The notes under the pieces were generated by a model. The model was not told where the DNA came from. It did not search any database and was given only the letters and a program-made list of their open reading frames with translations. DNA of 42,641 nt from Desulfobacterales bacterium (GTDB lineage: Bacteria; Desulfobacterota; Desulfobacteria; Desulfobacterales; UBA5852). The stretch's first letter is position 1. The number at the start of each line of letters is the position of its first letter. The DNA is taken from the NCBI GenBank assembly GCA_030065275.1, contig JASJCV010000005.1, positions 1 to 42,641 on the forward strand. The letters run 5' to 3'. This document shows positions 26,739 to 32,197 of the stretch, piece by piece. Made by a program: the position numbers and the translations under genes.

Positions 26739-28847
26739 ATGATGGAGCGGGCTTATCGCGACACTCACGAAATGCTGCCCCCTGCGGAAACGAAGAATGA
26801 AAACAACCAAGCCACGGAAGGCGCCCCGGACCCGACGACGGCACAACCCCGGCCCAAACAACCGCGCTACGGCCGTTCGTACCTGATCAACAAGCTCAAT
26901 TATATCAATTTTCAGAACGGCACCATCCAGTTGGTGCTCACGCACCGCCGCTTCGACCAGACCACCATCTGCATTGCCCGTCCCCTGCCCTGCGAGGGCC
27001 GCCGCCTGGTTTGCCGCTGGTCGGACCCCCACCCCTCGGCCGCGCTGCTTGAAAACTATCGTTTCAGTGCGTTGTTCGTCAACGACGGGCGCCACGCGCT
27101 GGAAGTCGTGCCCCGGGTCGTGCGCATGGACGAGAAGGAGATTGAGCTTGAACTGCCCGACGAATGCCGCGAGGTGGCCAACCGCCGCGATACACGCTAT
27201 GCCTGCGATCGGATTCCGGTCCAGGTCATACAGAACAGCATGCTGTTCCGCGGGGTGCTGCTCGAGTTCAGTACCCGCGCGTTTCGAATCGCCCTGACCG
27301 TCGCACCGCCGCAGACCTTCCAATGCTTGGATCACGCCAAGCCACTGAACCTAATCGTTTTTGACGGCGACGAGCTCGTTTTCACGGGCGACTTCACCAT
27401 CCTTAAAAGCGGCGACGGGCGCCATGAGCGGGAATTTGTCCTCAAGCCCGAAATCAAGGCCATTCAGCGCTACAACGCCAAAGTTTATCGCAGTAAGCGG
27501 ATCGAACTGAAACCGGCCCCCAACATCGTCTTCCGGCACCCCCTCACCAGCCAGACGGTCAACCTGAAAGTGCTGGACCTGTCCGGCTCCGGGCTTTCGG
27601 TATCCGAGGGCGCCGGGCACTCGCTGCTGCTTCCCGGCATGATGTTGAACGAGGTCGAACTCCTATTTGCCGACAGCCTCACGCTTAACTTCAAAGCCCA
27701 GGTGCTTTACCGCAACCCCAAGCACAGCGAAGACAGGACCGGCGATATCGTCAACGGCCTGGCCATCATCGACATGGCCAGCGGCGACCACCTCAAACTG
27801 CTCAGTTTGCTGCAGCAGGCTGAAAATCAGAATGCCTACATCAATACGCGCATCGAGCTGGATGCCCTGTGGGACTTCTTTTTCGAAACCGGTTTCATCT
27901 ACCCGAAGAAATACGCTTTCATCCAGGCCAACAAGGAGACCATCAAAGAGACTTATTGGAGGCTGTATACGCAGAATCCGACCGTTGCGCGCCACTTCAT
28001 CTACCAGACCGAGGGGCGCATCATGGCCCACATGGGCATGGTGCGCCTTTACGAGAACGCCTGGCTGATCCACCACCATGCCGCCCGCAAGCGCTCCCTG
28101 GTGCACGCCGGCCTCACGGTTCTCAACCAGATCGGCCATTTCATCTACGATTCCCATCGGCTCTATTCGATGCACATGAAATACCTGATGTGCTATTTTC
28201 AGCCTGAAAATAATTTTCCCAACAGCGTCTTCGGCGGCTTCGCCCGCTACATCAACGACCGCGCCTGCTGCTCGCTGGACAATTTCGCCTATTTTCACTT
28301 GCCGGCACTCGAGGAGGCCGACAGCAGCAGCCTGCCCGACGAATGGACCCTCGATCACTGCACCGCAGCGGATATGGAGGAAATCGGGAACTGGTACCGG
28401 CACCAGATCGGCGGACCGATGTTGGACTGCCTCGATCTGGACACCCAGATGTTCGCCTCGACGGACCTGGCCGAAGAATACCGGCGCCACGGGTTTGCCA
28501 AAGATCGGCTGCTCTTGAGCCTGCGCCGCAACAACCGTATTCAGGCCTGCATCATCATTCATCGCACCGACATCGGGCTGAATTTGTCGGACCTCACCAA
28601 TTGTGTGAAGATCCTGCTGATCGACAGGCGCTCCATGAGCCGCAAGATTCTTCTCAAAAGTCTTCGGCTCCTGTACCAAAGACACGCCCTCAACCCGGAT
28701 ATGCCGGTTCTGCTAAATCCCAGCGATTTCGCCGAGCAGACCGCCATTCCTGTGGAAAAAAACTACAGTCTCTGGATTTTGAATACGCGCCACTCCGATA
28801 AATATTTCGGCTTTCTGAGCAAAATGTTCAAACTGGCACGCGAATGA
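26739..28847 (+). CDS. PilZ-domain protein with acetyltransferase-like C-terminal half
   Basis: A 702-residue soluble protein. After a disordered N-terminus come two PilZ-like stretches. The first has the RxxxR c-di-GMP signature at R149-R153 (NRRDTRY). The second (about 240-350) has RSKR at 251-254 and the D-x-S-x-x-G partner motif at D280-S282-G285 (VLDLSGSGLSV). The remainder (about 375-702) looks like two GNAT-type modules. The first holds GFIYPKKYA and the unusual WLIHHHAARKRS and CYFQPENNFPNSVFGGFA blocks. The second begins near LPDEWTLDHCTAADMEEIG. No membrane segment. Its stop overlaps the HD-GYP gene (ATGA), so the product likely reads c-di-GMP. The GNAT call is inference. Confidence 0.75.
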   Translation: MMERAYRDTHEMLPPAETKNENNQATEGAPDPTTAQPRPKQPRYGRSYLINKLNYINFQNGTIQLVLTHRRFDQTTICIARPLPCEGRRLVCRWSDPHPSAALLENYRFSALFVNDGRHALEVVPRVVRMDEKEIELELPDECREVANRRDTRYACDRIPVQVIQNSMLFRGVLLEFSTRAFRIALTVAPPQTFQCLDHAKPLNLIVFDGDELVFTGDFTILKSGDGRHEREFVLKPEIKAIQRYNAKVYRSKRIELKPAPNIVFRHPLTSQTVNLKVLDLSGSGLSVSEGAGHSLLLPGMMLNEVELLFADSLTLNFKAQVLYRNPKHSEDRTGDIVNGLAIIDMASGDHLKLLSLLQQAENQNAYINTRIELDALWDFFFETGFIYPKKYAFIQANKETIKETYWRLYTQNPTVARHFIYQTEGRIMAHMGMVRLYENAWLIHHHAARKRSLVHAGLTVLNQIGHFIYDSHRLYSMHMKYLMCYFQPENNFPNSVFGGFARYINDRACCSLDNFAYFHLPALEEADSSSLPDEWTLDHCTAADMEEIGNWYRHQIGGPMLDCLDLDTQMFASTDLAEEYRRHGFAKDRLLLSLRRNNRIQACIIIHRTDIGLNLSDLTNCVKILLIDRRSMSRKILLKSLRLLYQRHALNPDMPVLLNPSDFAEQTAIPVEKNYSLWILNTRHSDKYFGFLSKMFKLARE

Positions 28848-30910
28848 TGTTGAACCCGTTCCCCCAGCGCATCGATATGCCATCTTCCGACGAGACACCG
28901 ACGGGTGCGGACGACCATGCCCGTCTGAAGGCCGTTGCCCAACCGCATGACGAGGAGGAATCGCCCCCCCAATCGATGAACGATGTCCCGCTGTACAACA
29001 GCCGGATCATCGACAATTACATCAAGCTGATCAAATTCAAATACCCCTGGATCAATGCCACCGGGATTTTAAATTATGCCGGTATGACCAGCTACGAGGT
29101 GGCCGATCAGGGGCACTGGTTCACCCAGCGCCAAATCAACCGCTTCCACGAAAAACTTGCCGCATGCACCCAGAATGTGAACATTTCCCGTGAGGCCGGC
29201 CGCTATTCGGCCTCGCCCGACGCCATCGGCGTGATGCGGCAATACGGCCTGGGCATGATCGGCCCGGACAAATGCTTTGAGCACATGGGCACCTTCGCTT
29301 CGAAATTCACCAAGTCATCGGCGTTTCATTCGAAGCGGCTCAGTCCCAACAAGTATGAAATCGCCGTCCACCCGCGGCCGGGTGTGCGCGAAAAACAGTT
29401 TCAGTGCGAAAACCGCATCGGTTTTTTGGAATCCGTCACGCTGGCCTTTTCGAATAAACTTCCTCATATCGAGCACCCCGAATGTATCTTCCGGGGCGAT
29501 GCGGCCTGCCGTTACCTCATCAGTTGGGAATCGTCTTTTTCACTCGTCTGGAAGCGAATTCGCGCCTACATGCCGGTGTTATTCGTTTTAAGCTGTATTC
29601 TTCTGCACATGGGCGCCCCGCAGATTCGGCTGACCACCCTACTGTTGTCGAGCGCCGTTCTGTTTTTGCTGCTGACGCTGATCGGGGAATCGATGGAGAA
29701 GAACGAGCTGCGCAAGAGCGTCGATAACCTGAAGGATTCCACCGACAAGCTCGTCGACCAGATCGCGCTCAACTACAACAACTCGTTAATGATCAACGAA
29801 GTCGGCCAGCTGATTGCCGGCAAGACCAAAGTGGATGACGTCCTCGACAAGGTGGTCAAGATCTCCCAGCGACGGTTGAATTTCGACCGGGGCATCATTC
29901 TGCTGGCCAACAAGGCGAAAACCCGGCTGGAATACCGGGCCGCCTACGGGTACAGCCAGGAGATGCGGAATATGGTGCGCACGGCTTCCTTTCATTTGGA
30001 CAAGCCGGGTTCCAGGGGATTTTTTGTCGTTTCCTTCCGTGAGCAAAAGCCCTACCTCATCAACGATTTCAACGAAATCGAAAGGGAGTTATCTCCGCGC
30101 AGCTTGGATTTCGCGCGCAAGATGGGCGCCAAGGCTTTTATCTGCAGCCCGATCGTGTGCGAGGGGGAGGCGCTGGGCGTCTTTGCCGTCGATAACATCC
30201 ACTCCCGGCGACCGCTGGTTCAGAGCGATCTCAGCCTTCTCATCGGCGTGGCCTCGATCATCGGGATCGCCATCCGCAATACCAAACTGATCGAGTCCAA
30301 AGAGCGCCAGTTCAGCTCCATTCTCGAAGTCCTGGCCGCCAGCATCGACGCGCGAGACCCTCTGACATCCGGCCATTCGGCCAAAGTCACGGAATACGCG
30401 GTGGGCATCTGCAAGGAATTGAAAATGGACAGCCAGTACTGCGAGATGATCCGCGTTGCCGCGTTGCTCCACGATTACGGCAAAATCGGCGTTCCGGATT
30501 CGATTCTGAACAAGGCCGGCCGCTTAACCGGCAAGGAATACGAGACCGTCAAGACCCATGCGGCCAGCACCCGGGCCATTCTCGAACGCGTCAATTTCGA
30601 AGGTGTCTATAAGGAGGTCCCGATCATCGCCGGGGCCCACCACGAGCGTTACGACGGCAGAGGATACCCGGAAGGACTGGCGGGCGAGGAAATCCCTATG
30701 GGCGCCCGGATCATTGCGGTGGCCGATTTTTTTGAAGCCGTGACGGCCAAGCGGCACTACCACCAGCCCATGGCGCCGGAGCAGGCCTTCGCGCTAATGC
30801 AGGCCAAAATCAATACCCACTTTGATCCGCGCGTGGTGGAGGCCTTCATGCGCTACCACAAGGTCAACCCCGACCTGGTCCTGATGAAGACGCCCGCAGC
30901 GCTTGCATAG
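28844..30910 (+). CDS. Membrane sensor with GAF and HD-GYP domains (c-di-GMP phosphodiesterase)
   Basis: A 688-residue protein. Residues 50-230 form an N-terminal sensory region ending with HPECIFRGDAACRYLISWE, reminiscent of V4R/heme-NO-associated domains. Two membrane helices lie at about 242-257 and 264-281. A GAF domain spans about 310-485. The HD-GYP domain spans about 490-680, with H543-D544 in LLHDYGKIGVPD, HH at 599-600 and G607-Y608-P609 in YDGRGYPEG. HD-GYP enzymes hydrolyse c-di-GMP to pGpG or GMP, and all key residues seem intact. It overlaps the PilZ gene by four bases, so both are made together. Confidence 0.9.
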   Translation: MMLNPFPQRIDMPSSDETPTGADDHARLKAVAQPHDEEESPPQSMNDVPLYNSRIIDNYIKLIKFKYPWINATGILNYAGMTSYEVADQGHWFTQRQINRFHEKLAACTQNVNISREAGRYSASPDAIGVMRQYGLGMIGPDKCFEHMGTFASKFTKSSAFHSKRLSPNKYEIAVHPRPGVREKQFQCENRIGFLESVTLAFSNKLPHIEHPECIFRGDAACRYLISWESSFSLVWKRIRAYMPVLFVLSCILLHMGAPQIRLTTLLLSSAVLFLLLTLIGESMEKNELRKSVDNLKDSTDKLVDQIALNYNNSLMINEVGQLIAGKTKVDDVLDKVVKISQRRLNFDRGIILLANKAKTRLEYRAAYGYSQEMRNMVRTASFHLDKPGSRGFFVVSFREQKPYLINDFNEIERELSPRSLDFARKMGAKAFICSPIVCEGEALGVFAVDNIHSRRPLVQSDLSLLIGVASIIGIAIRNTKLIESKERQFSSILEVLAASIDARDPLTSGHSAKVTEYAVGICKELKMDSQYCEMIRVAALLHDYGKIGVPDSILNKAGRLTGKEYETVKTHAASTRAILERVNFEGVYKEVPIIAGAHHERYDGRGYPEGLAGEEIPMGARIIAVADFFEAVTAKRHYHQPMAPEQAFALMQAKINTHFDPRVVEAFMRYHKVNPDLVLMKTPAALA

Positions 30911-31036: not shown

Positions 31037-32197
31037 TCAACACGGTGATTTCAAATCCAGGCAGGCAGAAGCGTGCCTGATAAAGGCGGGTTGCGGCGTC
31101 GTGGTATGCCGATCGTCCAGGGGGGCACAGGCGGCTTCCAAAGAGGCCGTCGCCGCCGCACCGTTCGGTGCTTCCAGGATCCTGGAGAACAGGAACTGCG
31201 ATCCGCCACCGTAGCAGTCGAAGTTGGGGATGCCCCGCGCCAAGAACCTACCGGCCGCGCCGAGCAATTCGGACTCGCCCACATGGGTGCCCACGTGGCA
31301 TAAGACGCCAGCCTGCGCGGCCATCTGCGCGATGGCCCGTGAGCGCAGCAGTCCGCCGCATTTGGAAATCTTGATATTGAAGATATCACAAGCCTCCTGC
31401 GCCAGGAATACTTCGGCATCCGCCAGGCTGACCAGGGATTCGTCCACGATTACGGCCAACCCGCTATCCCGTCGGAACTGACGGAGGCCCTCGATATCAC
31501 CGGCCGGTAGGGGCTGTTCGATGGCGGCCGGCCGAAACGGCCGCACCCGATCGACTTCTTTCAGAACCTGCGTCCGCGTCAGCTTGCCGTTGACCTCCAG
31601 CCGAATCTCGCCCGCCTCCCCTGCCAGACGACGCACTTGCTCCATGCGCCCGTAATTGGCCTCCGAATCGGTTCCCAAGAGCACTTTGAAAACCGGCTTG
31701 TCGAAACGCGCCTGCAGGATCGGTAAGTACTTTTCGACAATCGCGCGGTCGACAAGGGGCACGGATATCGAAAAGCGAAGTGCCTGGCGATATTTCTCGG
31801 GAAATAGTTGCCGGGCCTCCGAATGACCGCCACGCCCGAGCACATCGATGAGGGCCAGATCGGCCGCCCCCAGGGCAGAATGATAGGCTCGCGGCTCGTT
31901 CTGCCGGCAGGCGGTTTCAAGTTGCGCTAGCAGTGTTTCGACATCTTCCAGGGTGTCAAAGGGGTTGGCAAACAAAATCGGGGCGAAGGCATGCTGCCAC
32001 AATGCAAGCACCGATGCGACGCTCTCCCCGGTGACATAGGCCCGCGGCGCACTTTCCCCCCACCCCCAGCCGTTCGGACCGCAGTCGAGACGCACGATCA
32101 CGGAATCCGCCCGAAGCCGGTTGGCCTGGGGAGAATGAAAAGGGATTTTGAAGGCTTCGTTGTAGTGGTAGCACTGGATTCGCTGGACGATCATCAT
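31037..32197 (-). CDS. Enolase-superfamily protein (muconate-cycloisomerase/dipeptide-epimerase subgroup), altered active site
   Basis: A 386-residue capping domain plus barrel. The N-terminus resembles the subgroup (FKIPFHSPQANRLRADSVIV, then GWGWGESAPRAYVTGES). The second-strand KxK is K171-V-L173: the second, usually catalytic, lysine is missing. Metal-ligand positions read E201 (usually Asp, in EVNG), E227 (AIEQPLP) and D252 (IVDESL). K276 and K279 lie in NIKISKCGG on the sixth strand. The gene ends convergently with the HD-GYP gene. It may still be an epimerase or o-succinylbenzoate-synthase relative. Substrate unknown. Confidence 0.8.
   Translation of the reverse strand: MMIVQRIQCYHYNEAFKIPFHSPQANRLRADSVIVRLDCGPNGWGWGESAPRAYVTGESVASVLALWQHAFAPILFANPFDTLEDVETLLAQLETACRQNEPRAYHSALGAADLALIDVLGRGGHSEARQLFPEKYRQALRFSISVPLVDRAIVEKYLPILQARFDKPVFKVLLGTDSEANYGRMEQVRRLAGEAGEIRLEVNGKLTRTQVLKEVDRVRPFRPAAIEQPLPAGDIEGLRQFRRDSGLAVIVDESLVSLADAEVFLAQEACDIFNIKISKCGGLLRSRAIAQMAAQAGVLCHVGTHVGESELLGAAGRFLARGIPNFDCYGGGSQFLFSRILEAPNGAAATASLEAACAPLDDRHTTTPQPAFIRHASACLDLKSPC

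Follow-up and report, generated by a model that had tools for sequence, protein, structure and literature searches.

The 42,641-nucleotide stretch of Desulfobacterales DNA analyzed here (the window), from an uncultured relative of sulfate reducers, contains two overlapping genes, denoted A and B, that probably constitute a sensor-messenger-enzyme module, that is, an acyltransferase pathway controlled by cyclic diguanosine monophosphate (c-di-GMP) and equipped with a sensor of its own. Protein A is predicted to combine a c-di-GMP receptor with a tandem of GNAT-like domains, and protein B an H-NOX/V4R-like sensor domain with an HD-GYP phosphodiesterase. Judging by gene content and arrangement, the pair, usually together with a methyltransferase, appears to be an old module of Desulfobacterota and Geobacter-type bacteria. 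The relevant features of the window are the following.

26739-28847, + strand: gene A, PilZN-like/PilZ/PilZ/GNAT/GNAT protein, 702 amino acids (aa) (open reading frame (ORF), AlphaFold, Foldseek)
26865-27152, + strand: A, N-terminal beta domain, PilZN/YcgR-N-like, aa 43-138 (AlphaFold secondary structure; Foldseek matches to two-domain PilZN-PilZ receptors)
27162-27449, + strand: A, predicted PilZ domain 1, aa 142-237, R149xxxR153 and D/E176-F-S/N-xx-S181 (AlphaFold, conservation)
27468-27809, + strand: A, predicted PilZ domain 2, aa 244-357, R251xxR254 and D280xS282xxG285 (Pfam PilZ in orthologs, conservation)
27858-28295, + strand: A, predicted GNAT half 1, aa 374-519, HHHAA and YFxPENxFP blocks (AlphaFold, Foldseek, conservation)
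28344-28841, + strand: A, predicted GNAT half 2, aa 536-701, G559, N615 and Y676 invariant or nearly so (AlphaFold, Foldseek, conservation)
28844-30910, + strand: gene B, membrane sensor and putative HD-GYP phosphodiesterase, 688 aa (ORF, Pfam, conservation)
28976-29554, + strand: B, N-terminal sensor of predicted H-NOX/V4R fold, aa 45-237, candidate zinc site C188, H211, C214, C222 (AlphaFold, Foldseek, weak Pfam, conservation)
29561-29695, + strand: B, two-helix membrane hairpin, aa about 240-284 (hydropathy, helices in the model)
29834-30274, + strand: B, GAF domain, aa 331-477 (Pfam GAF, 9.7e-14)
30329-30835, + strand: B, HD-GYP domain, aa 496-664, with HDYGK, HHE and DGxGYP intact (Pfam HD_5, 9.6e-46)

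Both ORFs are intact, lie on the same strand and have the boundaries given in the original prediction, which was made from this DNA without database searches. The TGA stop of gene A (28845-28847) and the ATG start of gene B at 28844 share four bases (ATGA); no Shine-Dalgarno-like run is evident upstream of B within the 3' end of A. In a congener (G003), the alignment of B begins at residue 1 and the two genes overlap as well, so the overlap is not merely a choice of the ORF caller. Coupling by overlap, as originally proposed, thus extends to the congener but is not universal because most of the distant orthologs have small gaps between A and B instead. The B-type sensor domain is present in a single copy in the window's 3.8-Mb assembly (81% complete), adjoining A, and the pairing recurs in two bacterial classes, which excludes a chance association.

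Protein A: a putative c-di-GMP receptor joined to a predicted tandem GNAT

The AlphaFold model of A, built from 22 aligned sequences (mean predicted local distance difference test score (pLDDT) 82, predicted template modeling score (pTM) 0.70), begins with a beta domain, followed by a pair of PilZ-like barrels and a pair of GNAT-like domains; the individual domain names are a reading of the secondary structure of the model combined with sequence motifs. A Foldseek search of the PDB started with this model identifies two groups of matches with E-values of about 1e-8 to 1e-6, namely c-di-GMP receptors and tandem GNATs. The receptor group includes the MrkH-c-di-GMP complex (2.5e-8), the YcgR-c-di-GMP complex, PlzA, MotI and VCA0042, all of the PilZN-PilZ type. 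The segment aa 43-138 would correspond to the PilZN/YcgR-N-like domain, an assignment for which Foldseek does not give the matched residues. At the sequence level, the Pfam PilZ profile matches A from the window weakly (E=0.044) and 19 of the 22 orthologs, the best of them with 3.7e-8; a profile search of the PDB with A reveals nothing useful (best match E=0.56).

Among 81 A sequences, R149 is conserved in 80, R153 in all 81, and D or E at position 176 in 80; in PilZ domain 2, R251, R254, S282 and G285 are each present in all 81 sequences and D280 in 77. The RxxxR motif in PilZ domain 1 and the DxSxxG motif in PilZ domain 2 are the two halves of the canonical signature, split between two domains and both strongly conserved. 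The N-terminal half of A is predicted to adopt a YcgR/MrkH-type c-di-GMP receptor fold with two PilZ barrels, and, as suggested by fold and motifs, A probably reads c-di-GMP. The PilZ reader of the original prediction and its choice of R149 and R153 as key residues are borne out by these results; the second PilZ domain had escaped notice, as had the H-NOX/V4R-like domain of B and the methyltransferase neighbor in relatives.

The GNAT group of matches includes GlmA (5kgh, glucosamine N-acetyltransferase of C. acetobutylicum, 5.6e-8), VipF and 2wpw, a protein of the clavulanate pathway; N-myristoyltransferase follows at about 4e-5. A search of a viral structure library yields GNAT-like and myristoyltransferase-like matches and no nearer relative. 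The HHHAA (aa 445-449) and YFQPENNFPN (aa 486-495) blocks that had originally attracted attention are hallmarks of the family, located in GNAT half 1, where H446 is conserved in 80 and A448, N491 and F493 in all of the 81 sequences. A conserved AGLxxL at 457-462, following the HHHAA strand, is the sole candidate acyl-CoA loop seen in A. The two GNAT halves proposed earlier are thus recovered in the predicted structure, and the C-terminal half of A is modeled as a tandem GNAT; as no GNAT family profile recognizes its sequence, it is classified as a relative at the level of fold only. The profile search that had been named as a possible refutation accordingly gave a divided result: it detected PilZ but not GNAT. 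By analogy of fold, A would catalyze acyl transfer.

Two diverged relatives of A (L169:2216-5116, 966 aa, and L170:955-3312, 785 aa) carry, as judged by eye from their sequences, extra PilZ-like segments before the GNAT pair.

Protein B: a membrane sensor with an HD-GYP domain

In agreement with the original prediction, B contains GAF and HD-GYP domains detected by Pfam and a membrane hairpin apparent from hydropathy. The HD-GYP catalytic residues are invariant in 21 orthologs of B (H499, D500, H528, H555, H556, D560, G563, Y564, P565 and D584 in the numbering of the first sequence of the ortholog alignment). Thus, B is probably a membrane-anchored sensor that destroys c-di-GMP. In one locus (L139:10047-12290), the HD-GYP partner of A has a C-terminal PilZ domain of its own (Pfam 5.1e-8).

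The sensor domain consists of about 190 residues that follow an unconserved leader. Its AlphaFold model (pLDDT 82) is most similar, in a Foldseek search, to H-NOX (1.6e-6, TM-score 0.75 by target length), followed by TRAPP-Bet3 and the phenol sensor PoxR. Sequence searches give weak signals: Pfam V4R and Arabinose_bd in orthologs, and H-NOX at 0.068 in a profile search of the PDB. A single-sequence match to the telomere protein Pot1 in the PDB (0.06) was judged to be due to chance, and so was KilA-N (Pfam E 0.045-0.15), which appears in only 5 of 30 members and disagrees with the H-NOX-type model. The predicted fold of the domain is that of H-NOX/V4R.

Four residues, C188, H211, C214 and C222 (P0002 numbering), spaced 23-3-8, are retained in most of the 76 B sequences. 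The zinc ligands of the H-NOX proteins from S. oneidensis (Cys139, His161, Cys164, Cys172) and C. crescentus (Cys138, His160, Cys163, Cys171) are spaced 22-3-8 (PMC7108781, PMC12329717). A glycine five residues past the first cysteine is conserved in B as well; the glycine at this position is described as a hinge in V. cholerae H-NOX (PMC7108781, PMC12329717). The Cys-His-Cys-Cys quartet of B is therefore a candidate zinc site. In the H-NOX proteins just named, signaling is switched when the zinc thiols are oxidized, in the V. cholerae form without heme (PMC7108781, PMC12329717), hence the reasoned guess that B might sense redox state. Two Geomonas loci (L122 and L125) have an additional gene with this H-NOX/V4R-like sensor domain, some 5.5 kb upstream of where A ends.

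Conservation of the module and its genomic context

In whole-genome searches, 24 of 58 near relatives carry A, as do 142 of the 389 genomes sampled from the window's class and 46 of the 395 sampled from the phylum, a few of the matches in the two larger samples being weak or partial. The named carriers include Desulfobacterales (Desulfosarcina, Desulfatitalea), Geobacter, Geomonas and Pelotalea. A is an old and widespread family of Desulfobacterota and Geobacter-type bacteria, so the ORF pair in the window is not a chance reading.

Genomic context was surveyed in 80 named loci, 11 of which have too little flank to judge, leaving 69 informative ones. An HD-GYP partner is close to A in 46 of these, as a sensor-GAF-HD-GYP gene directly downstream on the same strand in 39 and nearby in the other 7; in 8 more loci, the sensor in the flank lacks HD-GYP. 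The single locus scanned among these 8 (L148) encodes GAF and HATPase domains, indicative of a kinase type, and the sensor proteins adjoining A in L039, L041 and L045 contain GAF, PAS, HisKA, HATPase and receiver domains. In the phylum sample, 37 genomes have both A and the sensor, 5 have A alone, 9 the sensor alone and 344 neither. The two genes are at most 6 kb apart in 33 of the 37, and the sensor itself is rare (0-4 copies in 11 genomes checked). By frame length, a proxy used here in place of a domain scan, 16 of these 33 sensors are HD-GYP-like (600-800 aa), 14 are kinase-like (at least 950 aa) and 3 are cut short.

A class I S-adenosylmethionine (SAM)-dependent methyltransferase of about 270 aa is encoded within the fetched neighborhood of A in 57 of the 80 loci; of the 36 genomes of the phylum sample that possess it, 34 also carry A or a diverged A. 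Given that HD-GYP is often missing or replaced, it is the sensor domain and the methyltransferase, rather than HD-GYP as such, that accompany A most closely. In L171 (1704-3509), a PilZ-free, 331-aa relative of the GNAT pair is followed, after 3 bases, by another member of this methyltransferase family. This arrangement suggests that the GNAT and the methyltransferase could form the enzymatic core, with PilZ and the sensor as its control.

Other genes recur near A. An enolase-superfamily (MR_MLE) gene (31037-32197 in the window, - strand) neighbors A both within the genus and in more distant relatives (L032, L039, L046), fused in L039 to an alpha/beta hydrolase. A B12-binding radical SAM protein, BchE/HpnR-like although below family cut-offs, is encoded near A in L026, L028, L031, L039, L160 and L165, and a FadL/Toluene_X outer-membrane porin adjoins the cluster in 16 mostly Geobacter-type loci (e.g., L125:13120-14382). 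All three were rejected as core parts, each being present in a minority of loci only.

Proposed mechanism and alternatives

In the proposed scheme, a signal, most likely redox or an oxidant and otherwise a small hydrophobic ligand, would act on the sensor of B with its Cys3His zinc site, and the sensor and GAF together would set the HD-GYP activity. Membrane-anchored B would lower c-di-GMP in the vicinity of A, the local level falling or rising with the signal. A cyclic dinucleotide, with c-di-GMP the likeliest candidate, would bind to either or both of the PilZ domains of cytoplasmic A, and their occupancy would determine acyl transfer. The effect on A could be activating, as proposed for PixB, or inhibiting, as in HfsK (both discussed below). 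In relatives, A and the SAM methyltransferase would act together and probably share a substrate, be it a small molecule, a lipid or an envelope precursor. Where a kinase takes the place of HD-GYP, the same sensor would have to signal through a phosphorelay; the connection with c-di-GMP breakdown therefore does not hold in all cases. A more specific version, which we regard as speculative and on balance doubtful, is a redox-gated circuit of anaerobes in which a heme-less, H-NOX-type zinc-thiol sensor-HD-GYP protein would, via tandem PilZ domains, control a new acyltransferase family and a dedicated methyltransferase that make or modify a lipid, envelope component or metabolite.

Several observations weigh against the module as proposed. 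The second motif of PilZ domain 1 (D/E-F-S/N-xx-S) does not have the final glycine of DxSxxG, and the first motif of PilZ domain 2 is RxxR instead of RxxxR. No Pfam GNAT match was obtained for A from the window or its 22 orthologs, and neither GNAT half shows, on reading by eye, a clear R/QxxGxG/A acyl-CoA motif. A methyltransferase of the family described above was not detected in the window's genome, which is 81% complete. About half of the adjacent sensor partners in the phylum sample are kinase-like in length, and the association of A with the sensor in that sample (Fisher p ~5e-38) is inflated by the relatedness of the genomes. Of the 69 informative loci, 15 have no sensor gene within the fetched flank, and 5 sampled carriers of A have no sensor detected anywhere, so A can act without B. 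The expectation that orthologs would routinely have an HD-GYP neighbor therefore holds for the majority of loci but not for these, nor for the 8 where the same sensor has another output.

The principal competing explanation concerns the signal: the sensor of B could instead, though less probably, be a V4R-type domain that binds a hydrophobic ligand such as an aromatic compound, in the manner of DmpR, MopR and PoxR, with a structural zinc and no redox switch. The weak V4R and Arabinose_bd hits, the presence of PoxR and palmitoylated TRAPP-Bet3 among the structural matches, the structural 3Cys+Glu zinc in DmpR-type sensors, and the FadL/Toluene_X porin beside the module in mostly Geobacter-type loci are all compatible with this possibility, but H-NOX structures match clearly better than PoxR (1.1e-3) and the fourth ligand is histidine, as in zinc H-NOX, not glutamate. 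Binding of heme and sensing of NO or O2 by B would fit the H-NOX fold and the known partnership of H-NOX with c-di-GMP enzymes (PMC8846402), but is very unlikely and was set aside: the proximal position (column 103 of the sensor) is L, M or I, with histidine in only 3 of 76 B sequences, and the YxSxR heme motif is absent, so the domain is not classified as a heme H-NOX.

As for A, the missing Pfam match and canonical acyl-CoA loop would also be expected if the GNAT pair were a degenerate, non-catalytic binding platform and A a c-di-GMP adaptor; this appears unlikely, as both halves have numerous invariant residues and a GNAT copy free of PilZ is paired with a methyltransferase, two observations that argue for an enzyme. 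Geobacter-type bacteria possess hybrid GGDEF enzymes that make 3',3'-cyclic GMP-AMP (cGAMP), and with the family extending to these bacteria and its PilZ motifs not fully canonical, the messenger might be cGAMP, or both dinucleotides; this is improbable considering that the best structural neighbors of A are c-di-GMP receptors and that the HD-GYP partner in L139 bears a PilZ domain. Finally, A and B could belong to separate pathways and be co-located for expression only, as the A genes without B and the B-type sensors with other outputs elsewhere in genomes might indicate. This, too, has little to recommend it because the linkage is kept across two classes despite differing flanking genes. Sensor control of A via c-di-GMP remains the preferred reading.

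Relation to known systems

To our knowledge, few c-di-GMP outputs act by chemical group transfer. The reader, the GNAT halves, the HD-GYP partner and the conserved pairing of the original prediction stand, but the constancy of HD-GYP does not, nor does the claim that an acyltransferase output for c-di-GMP is undescribed: PixB and HfsK precede A (PMC8316039, PMC5362036). PixB (MXAN_2604) of Myxococcus xanthus binds c-di-GMP in vitro, has been proposed to be a c-di-GMP-stimulated acetyltransferase and shares the architecture predicted for A in that two PilZ domains precede an acetyltransferase domain at the C terminus (PMC8316039). The two differ in spacing (R121 and R331 of the PixB RXXXR motifs are 210 residues apart, compared with 102 for R149 and R251 of A) and in motifs, given that PixB has RXXXR in both PilZ domains and is missing the serine of the second motif, whereas PilZ domain 2 of A has DxSxxG and RxxR; A, unlike PixB, has a predicted tandem GNAT unseen by Pfam, and no HD-GYP or methyltransferase partner is described for PixB in the available text (PMC8316039). 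HfsK (CC3689) of Caulobacter crescentus resembles A as a tandem-GNAT (FemX-like) c-di-GMP effector, but it is inactivated by c-di-GMP, with the binding site assigned to R112 and arginines near the C terminus, and no PilZ domain is described in the available text (PMC5362036). For neither PixB nor HfsK is a substrate known (PMC8316039, PMC5362036). The predicted fold of the N-terminal half of A is that of the YcgR, MrkH, PlzA and MotI receptors, to which A adds one more PilZ domain and a C-terminus resembling an enzyme.

For B, the closest parallel is the H-NOX-HnoK-HnoB pathway of S. oneidensis and V. cholerae, which likewise involves an H-NOX fold, a Cys3 + His/Gln zinc site and a link to a c-di-GMP phosphodiesterase, and in which heme-free V. 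cholerae H-NOX can serve as a redox sensor (PMC7108781, PMC12329717); B, in contrast, has no heme ligands and is fused via the membrane hairpin and GAF to HD-GYP (a kinase in relatives). The V4R sensors DmpR, MopR and PoxR are related in fold and coordinate zinc through three cysteines plus one other ligand (Cys151, Glu172, Cys177 and Cys185 in DmpR, where the zinc is structural), but their output is a sigma-54 activator (PMC7264223, PMC10715001). A 2022 review and census of c-di-GMP sensory domains, in its available part, lists H-NOX as a separate partner protein and does not mention V4R (PMC8846402), whereas in B an H-NOX-type domain appears to be fused directly to a c-di-GMP enzyme. What is new here is a predicted tandem GNAT family outside Pfam, an H-NOX/V4R-fold sensor fused to HD-GYP and the associated methyltransferase. 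Given that the A family is widespread and often encoded beside the sensor and the methyltransferase, comparison of mutants in cultivable Geobacter, Geomonas and Desulfosarcina offers a route to the substrate.

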